A stretch of DNA of 64,000 nt from Glaciimonas soli (lineage in GTDB: Bacteria > Pseudomonadota > Gammaproteobacteria > Burkholderiales > Burkholderiaceae_D): assembly GCF_009497155.1 (NCBI RefSeq), contig NZ_WINI01000004.1:1-64000 (forward strand), written 5' to 3'. Shown here piece after piece: positions 41,496-47,913 of this stretch. Position 1 is the first letter of the stretch; each line of letters opens with the position of its first letter. The notes under the pieces are model-generated. The model was not told the DNA's origin. It saw only the letters and a list, made by a program, of their open reading frames with translations, and did not search any database. The translations under genes and the position numbers were made by a program.

Positions 41496-43709
41496 ATGGC
41501 CGAAGCACAATCGATAGATAATCCGATCGCTGTAAAGCACTATCAGATTCATGGTCGTTTGGGTGAAGGTGGCTTTGCTCACGTTTATGAAGCCTGGGAT
41601 AGCAAGCTTTGTCGCAGCGTTGCCATCAAGCGCCTTAAAAATATCGATGGTGTCAGCAATGCCAAAGACATGCTGCGGGAAGCGCGTTTGTCGTCATCAC
41701 TCAAGCATGCCGCCTTTGTCAAAATTCACGCTTTAGAAGAAGACGATAACGATACGGCCTCTATCGTCATGGAGTTAGTGCCAGGCCGTAGCTTGAAGCA
41801 GTTACTGGCCGAAGCGCCCGTCTCGGAACTGCAAGCGCTGCAGATAGTACAGGCCACTGCCGAGGCTATGTGCGAAGCACATGATTCAGGTCTGACTCAT
41901 GGCGATTTGAAGCTCTCGAACCTTATGATCGAGCCATCGGGAACCTTGCGCATACTCGACTTCGGCCTGGCGGTGCACAGCGATCAGCAAGTCACAATCA
42001 CATTACAGCAAGCAGATCCTCAGGGCACAATCGCTTACATGGCGCCAGAGCGCCTGCGAGGCGCCGCACTGAGTCCGCAATGCGACATTTACGCGCTCGG
42101 CGTGGTTTTATACGAATTGGCGACGGCAACGCGACCGTTTCCGCATTTATCAGGGCTCGCACTAGCCGCCGCCCATCTGCAATCTTCATCCGAGCAATGG
42201 CACTACCCGGTTACGATGCATGCTCAATTAATCGGTTTGATACACAGAATGACCGCCTATTCGAGCGAGCAACGGCTTCAATCCATGCGCGAGACGCATA
42301 GCCAAATCGTTGAGGTTGTGAAAGCACTGCAATCAGATTCATCCACCACTTCCGCGCCGACCGCGTTGATGCCGACTGTTTCGGCACCATTGCCGCCGGT
42401 AAGCAAAAATACGCCGCTCTCCCGGCTGGGGCGAAAACTCCCGCTGGCAATTGCACTGACAATTGCGCTCGCCGGTGGCGTGTGGCTGGCGTCGCCGTAC
42501 GCATCGTATTGGTTAACACTGGTCACACCGAAAGCACCGTTCAGTGAAGCGCTGGAAATGAAACAGGGGCTGGCAGCGCTGCAAGCGTGGGACCGTCCGG
42601 GCGAACTGGACGACGCGGAAACCAAATTCACGACCGTACTCCAGCACGATTCGAGTAACGCTGCTGCCGTCGCAGGGTTATCGCAGGTCTACAGCCTGCG
42701 CTACAAGAACGACAATCTGGACGATACCTGGCGACAAAAGGCCGCAGCGGCGGCCCAACAGGCGCTCAAGCTGAATGACCAATTGGCGCTGAGCCATGTT
42801 GCCTATGGCAACGCACTGTTCAATGAAGGCAAAATCGAGGACGCGTCGGCAGCTTACGAACACGCGCTAAATCTGGACCCGACGAACCTGTTTGGATTAT
42901 TAGCCAAGGCGCAATCGCTGGACAAATTGCATCGCCCCAATGAAGCGCTGGCCGCAGCGCAAAAGGATCTACAGGATTACCCGCATGAGCGAGCATTTGC
43001 CGACCTGATCGGTACGATATTTTATGAGCAGGGAAACTTCAAGGCGGCGGAGCAGGCATTCCGCCAGAGTATCAAGATTCAACCGGACGCCGTATTTTCA
43101 TACGCGAATCTGAGTGCCGCGCTGCTCAGTCAGGATCGTTCGGCCGAAGCCATGCAAGTGCTGCAACAAGGCTTGCAGATCAGGCCTAGCGCCTGGCTGT
43201 ATAGCAACCTGGGCAACGCCTTGTTCATGCGTGAAGATTATGTCGGCGCTGTCGCCGCTTTCGAGGCGGCAGTTTCCACAACCAAGGGTAACCCCAACGA
43301 TTATCTTGGCTGGGCCGATCTTGCGGATACCTTGCTGTGGATACCAGGGCGTGAAGCGGAAGCCCGCACTAGTTATCAACACGCGATCAACCTGCTGTCG
43401 ACACGCCTCGTACACACGCCAAACAATGAAAAAATGCTATCGCAAATGGCGTTGTACCTTGCCAGAGTGGGTAATCGAAGCGAGTGTGAAACTCTGTTAC
43501 AGAAGGTGCTAAAACTGGCCCCCGACGATGCTTACGTTCATTTTCGTGCTGGCCTCGCCTACGAATTAATCGGTAACCGGAGCAAAGCGCTGGAATCCAT
43601 CGCGCGCGCAAGGCATTTGGGGTTTCCTGCAAAATTTATCGAGACCACACCGGAACTGGTTGGACTACGCAAAGACCCGGGGTATTTAAAAATAGGGGCA
43701 ATTCCGTGA
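41496..43709 (+). CDS. Membrane Ser/Thr protein kinase with C-terminal TPR domain
   Basis: This is a 737-aa Hanks-type kinase. The P-loop GEGGFAHVYEA begins near 23, with Lys45 in VAIKRLK. The catalytic loop HGDLKLSN has Asp137 but Gly in place of the usual Arg, making it a non-RD kinase. Asp155 lies in DFGLAV, and APERL follows. One TM helix lies near 315-334. About 400 residues of tetratricopeptide repeats follow (such as ALNLDPTNLFGLLAKAQSL). GGGGA precedes the ATG. It is followed by a sigma-54 promoter and opposed by an FHA-containing sigma-54 activator, a plausible phospho-substrate. Confidence 0.92.
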   Translation: MAEAQSIDNPIAVKHYQIHGRLGEGGFAHVYEAWDSKLCRSVAIKRLKNIDGVSNAKDMLREARLSSSLKHAAFVKIHALEEDDNDTASIVMELVPGRSLKQLLAEAPVSELQALQIVQATAEAMCEAHDSGLTHGDLKLSNLMIEPSGTLRILDFGLAVHSDQQVTITLQQADPQGTIAYMAPERLRGAALSPQCDIYALGVVLYELATATRPFPHLSGLALAAAHLQSSSEQWHYPVTMHAQLIGLIHRMTAYSSEQRLQSMRETHSQIVEVVKALQSDSSTTSAPTALMPTVSAPLPPVSKNTPLSRLGRKLPLAIALTIALAGGVWLASPYASYWLTLVTPKAPFSEALEMKQGLAALQAWDRPGELDDAETKFTTVLQHDSSNAAAVAGLSQVYSLRYKNDNLDDTWRQKAAAAAQQALKLNDQLALSHVAYGNALFNEGKIEDASAAYEHALNLDPTNLFGLLAKAQSLDKLHRPNEALAAAQKDLQDYPHERAFADLIGTIFYEQGNFKAAEQAFRQSIKIQPDAVFSYANLSAALLSQDRSAEAMQVLQQGLQIRPSAWLYSNLGNALFMREDYVGAVAAFEAAVSTTKGNPNDYLGWADLADTLLWIPGREAEARTSYQHAINLLSTRLVHTPNNEKMLSQMALYLARVGNRSECETLLQKVLKLAPDDAYVHFRAGLAYELIGNRSKALESIARARHLGFPAKFIETTPELVGLRKDPGYLKIGAIP

Positions 43710-43722
43710 ACAGAAATGAGCC

Positions 43723-43738
43723 TGGCACGGCTTGTGCA
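43723..43738 (+). promoter_or_regulatory. Sigma-54 (-24/-12) promoter
   Basis: TGGCACGGCTTGTGCA matches the consensus TGGCACG-N4-TTGCA at every position except the first T of the -12 box, with exact GG-N10-GC spacing. It starts 14 bp after the kinase stop. The expected start site is about 80 bp before the ATG of the 157-aa gene. It is the likely target of the FHA-containing activator encoded at 44367-45884. Confidence 0.8.
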
Positions 43739-43828
43739 TTAGATAGCATTCGCGTCACCTTCATGCCAACGAAATAATTCGGAACCCAACCCAATTTCGG
43801 CGGCCAATTTAATACCCGGAGAAGTTAT

Positions 43829-44302
43829 ATGACTCAAACGAAGCAACCTATAGCCTACACTAGCACTTTGATTCCGTTAGACCAGACGATCCGTTCTGCT
43901 CCATACGTACCATGGGTAATTACGCCGACGCCAGAGCATACTGCGGAACCGGGTAAACTCGGCGGAATGCCGTGGTTCAGAGCGGGGGACACAATCACTT
44001 TTAACATCCAGGGCGTTGAGTCGGGCTCCGGCAAGAGCACCCTTACTTTCGCCAAACTCCCGCCGATGGAATCGACTTTGCCGACGCCATTCAAACAGTA
44101 CAATAAGGAAAAACACCCGCACTCACCGTATCATTACAAACTGGGTGAGGTATTGGAGTTTGACAATATCGCCGGGCAGGAAGCGCAGTGGAGTTTTACC
44201 TTGGCGCATGATGCTGGAAACGGCAATCACCACGTACTGGAACTTGACCCGGAACTGCGGGTTGGTACTGGTGTTCAAGGCTGTGGCGACGATAAAAGTT
44301 AA
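43829..44302 (+). CDS. Protein of unknown function under a sigma-54 promoter
   Basis: I do not recognise this 157-aa protein. It has no signal peptide or membrane helix. The sequence is Pro/Thr-rich, with predicted beta character (FRAGDTITFNIQGV, WSFTLAHDAGNGNHHVLELD) and a single Cys near the C-terminus (VQGCGDDKS). It lies between the Ser/Thr kinase and the FHA-sigma-54 activator and directly behind a sigma-54 promoter, so it is probably the regulated output of that module. GAGAAG precedes the ATG. Confidence 0.75.
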   Translation: MTQTKQPIAYTSTLIPLDQTIRSAPYVPWVITPTPEHTAEPGKLGGMPWFRAGDTITFNIQGVESGSGKSTLTFAKLPPMESTLPTPFKQYNKEKHPHSPYHYKLGEVLEFDNIAGQEAQWSFTLAHDAGNGNHHVLELDPELRVGTGVQGCGDDKS

Positions 44303-44366
44303 ACGGCCTTAACGATCACAAGATAATGGCGGGTGAAATCCGGAAAAATCCGGACTAGCTCGCCAA

Positions 44367-45884
44367 CTACAATACCCGCAGATAACGCCTCAATGGCTCC
44401 GCGGGTGTCTTCAAGCGCGACGCGCACCGCTCGACGTTTCCGCCGCAATCGACCATGGCCTGACGAATTTCCTCCAGCGAAATGCTGTCCAGATTACGAA
44501 TCTGAGGATGGGCTTCCAATAACTTGTACATTGACGGGCGCGATATCCCCAGCGTTTGTGCGGCACCCTGAATGTGCCAATCGTTCTTCTCCATGGCCGC
44601 CAATATCTCCGCCTGCGTCAGATCCACCAACCGCCGCCGGCCCGATACAGCGCTGGCCCTGGCAACACTCGAAAGAGCGCCGGTGGCGGGTCTGATCCGG
44701 GCAGCATCAGCCCTGGCATCAACCAAGGTGTAAAAGTCCGGCGCTGGTTCGCCCGGCAGCAATAGTAATAAGCGATTGACGGCATGTGTTAGCTGACGCA
44801 CATTTCCCGGCCAGTCGTAGAGTATAAATTGCGCGATCAGCGAGGCCGGCAGCTGAAGTTCAACCCCCGTTGATAAGTTGGACGACGCCAGCAAATGGGC
44901 GATCAGCGTGCCGATGTCTTCACGTCGCTCACGCAGTGGCGGCAAATGGATGGTAAAACTCTCCAGTCGGCATAATAACGCCTGATTAAACATAAACCCG
45001 GTGTCATATAAATTCTGATCAGTAGCGGTAATCAGCCGCGCGCTCGATCGTACGTCGTGCGCCGCACCAAGCGGACGGTATTCACCCGTTTCCAGCACGC
45101 GCAGTAGCATGGGCTGTACTGCCGCCGGCGTGTTGCCCACTTCATCAAGGAACAGTGTGGAGTCCTCCGCTTCGGCGAACAGGCCGCTGCGGGCCGTTTG
45201 TGCCCCGGTATAGGCACCGCGAGTAGCGCCGAACAAATCTGCCGCCGCCAGTGACTCATTGAGCGTTGCCATATTTACACTTACCAGACGCGCCTTGGCA
45301 CGCCGGCTCAATCTATGAATACCGCGCGCCGCGACCTCTTTTCCGGTACCGGTTTCCCCCATTAGCAAAACGGAAACATCGGTCTTGGCTACTTGCCGAA
45401 TCTGGTCACGCGTGGCGATTGCGGCACTGCCTATTCCCAGCCAGCCATCGACCGGATTATCTCTGGGAAGACAGTGCATCCAATGCAGACATAGCACAAC
45501 CATCCGGCCCAGACTCAATACCGCGCCAGCGGTAATTTGCTCGTGCGACAGAAAAGTGCTCTCGCTGATGTCGTTACCATTGATTTCGAGCGCCATGCGG
45601 GTATTACCCGATGGTTGAATGACAATACCGCCCTGGCTCTGTGTGATTCGCAGCGGCGCCCGTGAAATCCCGCCATATGCCAAGCCTCCGGCCTCCCCTC
45701 CTGGGCGGCGAAACAAAGGCTCAAAACGCGATAAATCCAACGGCGTGGATGGATCCGCCCACAAGAATTGCTCGCCTATGCGCATCGCATCCGGATGCCA
45801 AGCGATACTGAGGGCCAGCAGTGGCACATCCTTTTGCGCACCGGCGAATGAAGGCGATGGGATGGTAAAGTCTGAATTGATCAT
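44367..45884 (-). CDS. Sigma-54-dependent activator with an N-terminal FHA-like domain
   Basis: This 505-aa protein has residues about 20-130 that look like an FHA phosphothreonine-binding fold (strands around LSIAWHPDAMRIGEQF and NGNDISESTFLSHEQ). The AAA+ domain has Walker A GETGTGKE near 174, the sigma-54 contact loop GAYTGA near 220 (the Tyr variant of GAFTGA) and Walker B LFLDEVGN near 243. A Fis-type helix-turn-helix (IQGAAQTLGISRPSMYKLL) is followed by an extra C-terminal helical segment. There is no receiver, so control probably comes from the adjacent Ser/Thr kinase. The start at 45884 was preferred to 45959. Confidence 0.88.
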   Translation of the reverse strand: MINSDFTIPSPSFAGAQKDVPLLALSIAWHPDAMRIGEQFLWADPSTPLDLSRFEPLFRRPGGEAGGLAYGGISRAPLRITQSQGGIVIQPSGNTRMALEINGNDISESTFLSHEQITAGAVLSLGRMVVLCLHWMHCLPRDNPVDGWLGIGSAAIATRDQIRQVAKTDVSVLLMGETGTGKEVAARGIHRLSRRAKARLVSVNMATLNESLAAADLFGATRGAYTGAQTARSGLFAEAEDSTLFLDEVGNTPAAVQPMLLRVLETGEYRPLGAAHDVRSSARLITATDQNLYDTGFMFNQALLCRLESFTIHLPPLRERREDIGTLIAHLLASSNLSTGVELQLPASLIAQFILYDWPGNVRQLTHAVNRLLLLLPGEPAPDFYTLVDARADAARIRPATGALSSVARASAVSGRRRLVDLTQAEILAAMEKNDWHIQGAAQTLGISRPSMYKLLEAHPQIRNLDSISLEEIRQAMVDCGGNVERCASRLKTPAEPLRRYLRVL

Positions 45885-45992
45885 TGTCCGCCAGAAACAG
45901 TCTGAAGGGCGAATGTAAATGAGTGCGGGGCGAGTGTCAACTCGCCCCGCTACAGGCAAATGCAGCGCCGATTCAAAGTCAGATTTTGGCGG

Positions 45993-46037
45993 ATACTACT
46001 CAGCAAGACGGCGAGGTATCGTCTTGCTGAGTAGTAT
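45993..46037. other. Perfect 18-bp stem-loop downstream of the 529-aa gene
   Basis: ATACTACTCAGCAAGACG (45993-46010) pairs perfectly with its inverse (46020-46037) across a 9-nt loop. It sits 10 bp after the stop of the 529-aa gene and before the activator gene on the same strand. There is no T-tract, so it is either a protective 3' hairpin, a non-canonical terminator or a protein binding site. Confidence 0.6.
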
Positions 46038-46046
46038 TGTTAGAAA

Positions 46047-47636
46047 TTACACGTTAGCCGGCGAACAAGAAACCACTCCGCCCAAGACATAGGCCTTTTG
46101 CTGCTGGATCGGGGTCGTGCCGCTGATCACCGGCGGTCCAAGCGTGACAGTGACCGATCCCGACGACGACCCAGCATTGATTTTTTGTACCGAATAAGAG
46201 CCTGAGGCTCCGCCGAAATCGAACATGCCGAGTAATTTAAGTTGTACCGCGGCGTTAACCTGAAAGTCGCTGGTGATACCACTGGCGTTGGAGCCGGCAA
46301 ACGTGATGCTGATGGTCGGTTGCTGGCTGATGACGAAGGTTTTGAGACGCGACAAGGCTTTGCCCGGTCCAAACAATTTGGCCACATCGAACTCACTACC
46401 TTGCAGCTGGTAACCGGTCGCATCTTTTCCAGTCTGGGCAGCTATTTCCTGCAAAACATCGTCCGCATACCAACCCGTGGTGTTATCGGCCGATAGCACG
46501 CTCGGATTCGACGCAAACATGGTCACGCCCGGATAGGTAACGTTCATGGTGATCTTGGACTGCGACGTAATGTAGCGCGACAAATCGTGCGAGGCACCGG
46601 CGTTGACCGCAATGTCCAAAATATCGACGATGGGAATAGTGAAGCTGGCACCACCCGCAATGCTCAACTGTGCGCTGTAGGAACCGAAGTCGGATATATT
46701 GATTGCCACACTAATCGCATTGGTACTGGCATTCAAACCCACAACCAATTGATTAGCGGTAGGTAATTTGTTCGGCGTAAAGCCAACATAATCGTCCATA
46801 TCACTAACCTGCATGCCCCCATTAGTTTGTGATGGCTTAGTGACGTTAGCGACAATTGCCGCAAGACGCGCGGTAGCGGCATAGTAGCGGTTGTGCAGCA
46901 CATAGCTGTCACCAGATATGCTGTGGTATGCAGCGATCGCGTTACGCAAGGAATGCAACGAGGCTGGCATGTTGGGAACCGAGCCGTATGTCGCATTAAT
47001 TTGATTGAATATATCCTGTAGTTTTCCACCAAAAGACAACGGCTTTTTGTACCTGCCGCCGACGTTCTCAAACTCGCTCAGGATAGCTGCGATCTGCGCG
47101 CTGGCAACCGCGTCTTGCCTCGCCATTATCGCCTGATCGTACTGGGAGAACGAGAACGTAACGGCACCCATGATCCGCGCATACAGTCTGGAAAAACCAC
47201 CGGCGATGAGTTCTGGCCGACCATTGCTTGCCACACCCAGCAAGGTGTCGATGTCTTGCAGTGCGGCCTGATTATAATAAGTGTTGCTGCCGTCAGTGAT
47301 ACCGTAGTTAAAGCCAGACGGATAGTTAATCATGCTGAATGCGCCGTCGAGCCTGGTCGACAATAACTGGGTAACCTGCTTCTCGACACCATCGATGAAA
47401 GCTTGTTGCATCGGTAACACGCCCGCCCTGGCCGCCTGCACCTTGGGCTTATTCGGAAAAGTCAACGCGCGGCACTTCGACAGCAAAGGTGGCGCAGGAA
47501 TTGGTTTGGCAGCGACCCAATTGGCGTAACATTCTTGTATGGCCGCAGCTGAGGAGGATGCAACGACTGTTTGTACCCAGTCGTATAGAGGGGAATTGGT
47601 GGATGGGCGAGCAATGCTGACGCGATACGCAGGCAT
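46047..47636 (-). CDS. Unrecognised 529-aa protein of the kinase/FHA/sigma-54 locus
   Basis: I recognise no family. There is no signal peptide or TM helix. The N-terminal half is helical with aromatic-rich stretches (FNYGITDGSNTYYNQ, RYYAATARLAAIVANV). The C-terminal half looks beta-rich with Ser/Thr/Gly repeats (FGGASGSYSVQKI, SSSGSVTVTLGP). It lies upstream of, and on the same strand as, the sigma-54 activator, separated by a long hairpin. A set of TTTACACA repeats lies about 240 bp before its start. It could be an effector or structural protein of the system. Confidence 0.7.
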   Translation of the reverse strand: MPAYRVSIARPSTNSPLYDWVQTVVASSSAAAIQECYANWVAAKPIPAPPLLSKCRALTFPNKPKVQAARAGVLPMQQAFIDGVEKQVTQLLSTRLDGAFSMINYPSGFNYGITDGSNTYYNQAALQDIDTLLGVASNGRPELIAGGFSRLYARIMGAVTFSFSQYDQAIMARQDAVASAQIAAILSEFENVGGRYKKPLSFGGKLQDIFNQINATYGSVPNMPASLHSLRNAIAAYHSISGDSYVLHNRYYAATARLAAIVANVTKPSQTNGGMQVSDMDDYVGFTPNKLPTANQLVVGLNASTNAISVAINISDFGSYSAQLSIAGGASFTIPIVDILDIAVNAGASHDLSRYITSQSKITMNVTYPGVTMFASNPSVLSADNTTGWYADDVLQEIAAQTGKDATGYQLQGSEFDVAKLFGPGKALSRLKTFVISQQPTISITFAGSNASGITSDFQVNAAVQLKLLGMFDFGGASGSYSVQKINAGSSSGSVTVTLGPPVISGTTPIQQQKAYVLGGVVSCSPANV

Positions 47637-47860
47637 GATGGTAAAGGCTCCGGATAAAATGATGGTTCAAATAAATGTCGGACGTGAACGGTTTTCCAAA
47701 TCCGTCACACACACCGCACCTGATGCCAGGGTGACAGTGCCGATCATCGTTACTGCATTTCGACGATCGATTCTTCCTCCACTAACAACATTATTTGCAA
47801 ACATCATGCCAAGCCAAAAAGCACCGGTTTTAAGCAGATCTCCATCACATCTGTGTAAAG

Positions 47861-47913
47861 TCGCCGATAATTTTACACACCGCGATTTTCTTTACACACC
47901 TTCTTTACACACC
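47861..47913. repeat. Cluster of TTTACACAC repeats upstream of the 529-aa gene
   Basis: TTTACACACC occurs at 47872-47881, 47891-47900 and 47904-47913, with an inverted partner CTGTGTAAAG at 47861-47870. This is an operator-like array in the 438-bp gap between the 529-aa gene and metE. No gene is evident in the rest of the gap. Confidence 0.5.

Follow-up and report, generated by a model that had tools for sequence, protein, structure and literature searches.

A putative phosphothreonine-dependent kinase-FHA activator switch with a conserved core and differing output genes in Glaciimonas soli and its relatives

Introduction

To our knowledge, how serine/threonine (Ser/Thr) kinases reach sigma-54 activators is poorly worked out. 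Enhancer-binding proteins with an FHA domain were reportedly described in Myxococcus xanthus by Jelsbak et al. in 2005. In Actinobacteria, according to PMC8546545, the TPR Ser/Thr kinase PknG acts on the FHA proteins GarA and OdhI via an N-terminal threonine in an ETTS motif, and PMC10482370 describes a threonine-phosphorylation pathway of the type VI secretion system (T6SS) comprising the kinase PpkA and Fha. Here we describe a gene cluster of Glaciimonas soli, located in a window of 64,000 nucleotides (assembly GCF_009497155.1, contig NZ_WINI01000004.1, positions 1 to 64,000), which encodes a Ser/Thr kinase, a 157-aa protein, a sigma-54 activator with an FHA-like N-terminus and a 529-aa protein. 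A first-pass annotation, made from the sequence alone, had proposed that the kinase could control the activator and thereby the two proteins of unknown function. The existence and positions of the four genes were confirmed (Table 1).

Results and Discussion

Conservation of the kinase, small protein and activator genes

To find out how widely the cluster occurs, orthologues of the activator over most of its length were counted in 195 genomes of the family. They were present at 32 places in 26 genomes, the own genome included, and the E-values of the matches dropped from 3.5e-108 straight to 1.0e-55. No activator orthologue was found in the four other genomes of the same genus in this draw, and among 369 genomes of the class only the own genome matched the activator at E<=1e-6. 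A named scan gave 75 loci, mainly from Massilia, Duganella, Undibacterium and their relatives, together with two Cellvibrio records; loci L139 and L141 are weak. The module is thus not confined to a single betaproteobacterium.

The gene order was assessed at the 64 loci whose sequence extends 5 kb or more to the right of the activator gene. A convergent kinase gene lies within 5 kb of the activator in 54 of them, and in 46 of these 54 a small protein of the 157-aa family is encoded between the two; most of the small proteins counted here had also gone into the model used for the count. Three loci (L071, L093 and L099) are arranged differently, yet both the kinase and the small gene are present. 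The clustering noticed in the first-pass annotation is therefore real and not due to chance, and the kinase and the FHA activator constitute a conserved pair. Co-occurrence had been expected for both proteins of unknown function; it holds for the 157-aa family but not generally for the 529-aa protein, of which one relative was found, next to the same module in Massilia sp. H-1. As judged by comparison of the loci, the kinase, the small protein and the FHA activator are a conserved core that is kept together.

Additional genes occur between kinase and activator at some loci, namely a thioesterase gene in L038 and a response-regulator receiver gene in L039. Two tandem kinases stand beside the same activator in L069 and L080 (both Undibacterium) and in L040:3301-7784, while in an Oxalobacteraceae bacterium (L085:11490-13439) the small gene is present four times in tandem between the kinase and activator genes. 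In the Massilia loci L117, L124, L125, L128 and L138, the activator is a more divergent paralogue with neither kinase nor small protein in reach.

The kinase and the domains of the activator

The kinase matched Pfam Pkinase (PF00069) with an E-value of 5.7e-46 and contains many TPRs. The catalytic motifs VAIK, HGDLK, DFG and APE were all found, identifying it as a Hanks-type kinase, and one membrane segment was predicted at residues 315-333 (Kyte-Doolittle).

The activator carries an AAA+ sigma-54 interaction domain (Sigma54_activat, PF00158, E 5.5e-48) and a C-terminal Fis-type helix-turn-helix (HTH; HTH_8, PF02954, E 3e-10), and sigma-54 itself is encoded in the same genome (Sigma54_DBD, E 3.5e-66). 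The GAFTGA loop is present as the variant GAYTGA, which was also seen in 61 of 74 relatives; one relative has GAFTGA and 12 were not matched by the search expression. After the Fis-type HTH there is a second, similar HTH-like stretch (44367-44600, by eye), perhaps forming a tandem DNA-binding module. The activator open reading frame (ORF, 44367-45959 on the minus strand) encodes 530 aa when read from a TTG and 505 aa from the ATG at 45884. The ATG is probably the true start and is preferred to the TTG at 45959, as the relatives align or begin there. The activator gene is convergent with the 157-aa gene on the plus strand.

The N-terminus of the activator was not matched by the Pfam FHA model, nor was it among the matches when the whole genome was searched and two other FHA proteins came up, and among 23 relatives the model matched a single one weakly (E 0.073). 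A profile built from 23 activator N-termini, on the other hand, had the FHA domain 3gqs as its best PDB match (E 0.0057). In an AlphaFold2 model made with 70 sequences, the block means of the predicted local distance difference test (pLDDT) were 89-95 for residues 21-140. Searching with this model by Foldseek resulted in eight matches at E<=0.001, all eight of them FHA proteins, including 3gqs and OdhI (best E 1.2e-5), and GarA was next in the list (1.2e-3). The N-terminus is hence predicted to have an FHA fold, and the suggestion that it looks like FHA was borne out by model, structure search and profile despite the missing Pfam match.

The activator alignment (A3) comprises 70 of 73 prepared sequences, L081, L089 and L141 being excluded. 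Arg53, Arg75 and Gly103 are invariant in all 70 rows, position 74 is Ser in 49, Ala in 19 and Thr in two rows, and position 102 is Asn in 56, Asp in 12 and another residue in two. The window protein has R53, S74-R75 and N102-G103, which we take to be the phosphothreonine-binding residues of FHA domains. In front of the domain lies a tail that is disordered in the model (pLDDT <50), and in it Thr7 is kept in all 57 rows that have a residue at this position; the 13 gaps are mainly due to trimmed tails. The untrimmed tails mostly contain TL[TAS], those of a Massilia/Telluria group YTQTLQ in its place, and that of the window protein TIPS, while L122 has no tail and that of L141 is divergent. An invariant threonine in a disordered tail before an FHA domain suggests, by analogy, a phospho-switch like that of GarA and OdhI.

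A proposed phosphothreonine-dependent switch

Based on these comparisons we favor, with moderate confidence, a transcription switch that depends on phosphothreonine and in which the core is fixed and the output exchangeable. The TPR region, which would be periplasmic if the predicted membrane segment is real, would sense a signal that alters the activity of the kinase. The kinase would phosphorylate Thr7 in the tail of the activator, possibly with the 157-aa protein as an adaptor or regulator, and the FHA domain would bind the phosphothreonine in cis or in trans. This binding would either permit or block the assembly of the AAA+ ring, and an active ring bound to the half-sites would open the sigma-54 promoter of the 529-aa gene.

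Alternatively, instead of reading a phosphothreonine in the activator's own tail, the FHA domain could bind the autophosphorylated kinase, which would hold the activator (off) or recruit it (on), the tail threonine being a docking or structural feature. PMC8546545 describes such a recruitment of an FHA substrate via autophosphorylated sites of the TPR kinase PknG, and the membrane segment predicted for the window kinase would be in coherence with it. We nevertheless consider this alternative unlikely, as an invariant Thr7 in a predicted disordered tail is hard to explain unless the residue is modified or bound; the two mechanisms could also operate side by side.

Promoters, operator and output genes

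Sigma-54 promoters were searched for with a matrix (score at least 14) within 400 bp of the activator gene. Sites that read away from the activator were found in 34 of 73 loci, where the background rate predicts 0.94, and the opposite strand of the same regions had one site. The regions upstream of these sites, 36 in number when the two sites of the window are added to the 34 loci, contain TGTAAA in 34 cases (1.9 expected) and ATGTAAA in 30 (0.74 expected). In the relatives, the putative operator upstream of the sigma-54 site is usually TTTACATGTAAA or TTGACATGTCAA, with the half-site TGTAAA, and the motif trained on 25 regions is TT[GT]ACATGTAAA. The operator matrix scored at least 15 in 23 of 24 regions of relatives; the remaining one, L089, scored 6.1 and the window 8.3. 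Operator sites are concentrated in the 500 bp before the activator, where there are 70, as compared with 1-12 in each other 500-bp bin having any. No operator was found upstream of the window kinase when looked for, and the corresponding regions of relatives contain an operator in 10 of 57 and a co-directional sigma-54 site in one of 57.

The genes behind the sigma-54 sites vary widely between loci. Among ten of their proteins scanned, there were one flavin adenine dinucleotide (FAD) oxidoreductase, one AAA ATPase and one GGDEF protein (L072, divergent from the kinase); for six others Pfam gave nothing at E<=0.01, and the last had a single match below the cut-off. The switch thus appears, from the comparison of loci, to consist of a fixed core and an output gene that differs from species to species. 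At L038:12791-16412, the kinase gene is preceded by LanC-like, HopA1-family and APH-like genes, and a FAD-oxidoreductase-like ORF is divergent from the activator; the switch may control a small biosynthetic cluster here. In the related locus L080, the same protein matches FAD_binding_3 and is encoded behind a sigma-54 site.

The 529-aa gene as the output in the window

Between 38 and 52 kb of the window, the two top-scoring sigma-54-like sites are those at 43723 and 47796, before the 157-aa and the 529-aa gene, respectively. Both belong to the 38 pattern matches in the 4.27-Mb genome, in which the reversed control pattern has 13. Upstream of the site at 47796 there are four GTGTAAA half-sites within 58 bp (47853-47910), while the site at 43723 has none. 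Of the 38 genome sites, 30 were examined, and four half-sites occurred only at 47796; the next was a site with two TGTAAA (L154). The 529-aa gene is therefore likely, on the strength of its upstream region, to be the output of the switch, and the claim of sigma-54 control made for it in the first-pass annotation is supported by both the promoter-like site and the operator half-sites. The L154 site, located at 32895-32910 of contig C2 of the same genome before a 345-aa ORF, has an operator score of 14.4 and is a possible second target of the activator.

The 529-aa protein had no Pfam match and a single NCBIfam match (E 0.018) with 13.9 bits, as compared to a cut-off of 255. No homologue was found in the 195 family genomes besides the own one, and there was no plasmid match. 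Among 399 genomes of the order, three marginal matches in addition to the own one (E 0.002-0.009) were taken as chance. A weak match in L123 was not recovered by the profile, and homology to the 442-, 472- and 510-aa ORFs of L072 and L105 found no support, with an hhalign probability of 0.3% and shuffle Z values of 1.5, 0.3 and 1.2. In Massilia sp. H-1 (L089), a relative with 25-26% identity was found as two ORF pieces, with a shuffle Z of 13.6 for one of them. Its gene and that of the same activator are divergent, and it is preceded by a 116-aa ORF and a sigma-54-like site with a score of 14.2. A single relative in this position fits swappable outputs, yet the 529-aa gene itself stays rare.

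The 157-aa protein family

The 157-aa protein had no match in Pfam and nothing convincing in NCBIfam, and its family is likewise without a match to either. When searched as a single sequence in the 195 genomes, it gave the own genome and one weak match (L003, E 2.6e-4), which was dropped as the ORFs of L003 (3.2 kb) carried no signs of the module. The family was gathered in rounds that included the window protein; a later model of 52 family proteins from which it had been removed matched it with an E-value of 4.4e-9, while the best of 500 shuffles reached 0.61. Members of more than 240 aa and two fragments were excluded from the family alignment (A2). In L118 and L133 an internal ATG within a long ORF is the start of the small protein; a fusion of kinase and small protein was rejected there, as the upstream stretch does not resemble kinase or TPR sequence and reads as a shadow frame in the GC-rich gene of the kinase.

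The first-pass annotation had counted this protein among the outputs. Against this, members of its family lie between the kinase and activator genes in 46 of the 54 loci with a convergent kinase, and the family has no match in Pfam or NCBIfam, so the protein looks like a part of the switch rather than an output. It could still be an output of the activator that is made together with the 529-aa protein, and a sigma-54-like site, one of the 38 genome pattern matches, does lie 90 bp before its ATG. We regard this as improbable: the -12 element of the site is imperfect and there is no half-site in the 250 bp upstream, and in the relatives the upstream region of the small gene has a sigma-54-like site in 10 of 51 cases, nine of which share one sequence in slightly different forms (TGGCATATGAATTGCT or TGGCATACGAATTGCT) that by eye translates as LAYELLG within the kinase gene. 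All TGGCATATGAATTGCT sites were accordingly set aside as kinase coding sequence.

To get an idea of the possible function of the protein, its structure was modeled. The beta-rich architecture emerged from the model with moderate confidence (pLDDT 70.9), and the closest fold by Foldseek was MakD (6tct) with a probability of 0.97 and an E-value of 0.023, no match reaching E<=0.001. Profile-profile comparison (hhalign) with four PixA proteins resulted in a probability of 12.5% and an E-value of 0.0023, and Pfam PixA was not among the seven families matched by any of 51 small-family members at E<=0.1. According to PMC11484084, the DALI matches of the MakC and MakD structures include 4lzk, and the PDB file names 4lzk a PixA inclusion body protein. 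By eye, the C-terminal F-x-DP-x-x-x-V ending of the 157-aa protein is similar to that of PixA, AidA and MakD, but the gene context here is a kinase and an activator and not inclusion bodies or a toxin operon. The possible relation to PixA and MakD is thus a lead and not a classification.

Table 1. Positions of the genes, domains and putative regulatory sites of the locus in the window.
Feature	Position	Strand	Basis
Hanks-type Ser/Thr kinase, 737 aa, C-terminal TPR domain	41496..43709	+	Pfam, motifs, convergent orthologues
Weaker sigma-54-like site TGGCACGGCTTGTGCA, 90 bp before the 157-aa ATG, doubtful function	43723..43738	+	GTGCA in place of TTGCA
157-aa protein, predicted beta-rich, of the small family whose genes lie between those of kinase and activator	43829..44302	+	Family model, structure model
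Sigma-54 activator (enhancer-binding protein): N-terminal FHA, AAA+ with GAYTGA, C-terminal Fis-type HTH	44367..45884	-	Pfam; start from comparison
Predicted FHA domain of the activator, residues 21-140 counted from the ATG	45465..45824	-	Structure prediction, Foldseek, profile against PDB
N-terminal tail of the activator, disordered, residues 1-17; invariant Thr7 as candidate phosphorylation site	45834..45884	-	pLDDT <50, alignment
529-aa protein, probable output gene	46047..47636	-	Upstream sigma-54 site and half-sites; one relative
Sigma-54 -24/-12-like promoter TGGCATGATGTTTGCA, 159 bp before the 529-aa ATG	47796..47811	-	Sigma-54 matrix, genome pattern count
Four GTGTAAA half-sites (three -, one +), candidate activator operator	47853..47910	.	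Motif search; half-site enriched in relatives

Points that weigh against the switch

Several observations speak against a phosphothreonine switch with a fixed core, or reduce the weight of the numbers given for it. At seven of the 64 activator loci (L117, L121, L124, L125, L128, L138 and L141) there is no kinase in reach, and the small protein is lacking in eight of the 54 loci with a convergent kinase. As they stem from related species, the loci and promoter regions cannot be treated as independent; the weights of the sigma-54 matrix are approximations, and the operator matrix was scored on regions of which 25 had been used to train it. At the same Kyte-Doolittle threshold, 31 of 59 kinase ORFs of relatives have no membrane segment and 28 have one or two, so a membrane location is not established for the kinase family. 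The "membrane Ser/Thr kinase with TPRs" of the first-pass annotation was right as to kinase and TPRs, and a membrane segment is predicted for the window protein.

As for the window itself, the half-sites read GTGTAAA and are mostly in tandem instead of forming the 12-bp palindrome, which is reflected in the low operator matrix score of 8.3. GTGTAAA is not over-represented in the window (10 matches, a number reached by 8 of 100 shuffles), and pairs of it gave five matches at three places in the genome as compared to three control matches. The weight of the putative window operator rests on the four half-sites standing within 58 bp upstream of a sigma-54-like site. Finally, the 529-aa protein has the single relative in L089, and the serine position of the FHA domain holds Ala in 19 of the 70 rows.

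That the FHA domain no longer binds phosphopeptides and simply mediates protein-protein or dimer contacts, with kinase and activator as neighbors in two separate pathways, would agree with these alanines, with the domain being missed by Pfam FHA and with the activators without a nearby kinase, but is highly improbable as Arg53 and Arg75 are kept in 70 of 70 rows, Ser74 in 49 including the window protein, and a convergent kinase in 54 of 64 loci.

The phosphothreonine-dependent switch could also be read more broadly, as a transferable and self-contained plug-in controller. Its parts would be the TPR kinase, the small family as a third signalling component and the FHA activator with its operator TTTACATGTAAA; the outputs (FAD oxidoreductase, GGDEF protein, AAA ATPase, 529-aa protein) would be exchanged between lineages, and a phosphothreonine tail would gate the sigma-54 AAA+ ring. 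This generalization is tentative, and our confidence in it falls somewhat short of even.

Comparison with known systems

The cassette is a small system in which the kinase is defined and the phosphosite, the operator and the target are predicted, and all four are directly testable. It also places a protein family that matches neither Pfam nor NCBIfam in a functional context, and its DNA motif can be used to find output genes across Massilia, Duganella, Undibacterium and their relatives. No title describing the module was present among the literature matches listed, and as most subscription journals were outside the scope, this does not show its absence from print.

The T6SS pathway resembles the cassette in that a Ser/Thr kinase is paired with an FHA protein. 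There, however, control of the secretion machine is post-translational, while here the FHA domain is inside a transcription activator. No T6SS family was found among the eight window proteins scanned, the rest of the genome not having been searched for T6SS.

FHA enhancer-binding proteins are, as reported, already known in Myxococcus, and the cassette is a variant of that kind, sharing with them a sigma-54 activator with an FHA domain and a presumed Ser/Thr kinase input. It is marked by the three-gene arrangement with a small partner protein, the shared operator, the neighboring outputs that vary between species, and an FHA sequence too divergent for the Pfam model.

PknG is a soluble kinase, in contrast to the window kinase with its predicted membrane segment. 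By analogy, PknG with OdhI or GarA is the nearest worked example found in which a TPR kinase targets an FHA protein via a tail threonine: the phosphorylatable threonine is N-terminal there, in ETTS, and the candidate one here stands mostly in TLTS and in TIPS in the window protein. The difference lies in what is controlled, metabolic enzymes in the one case and, as proposed here, sigma-54 transcription in the other.

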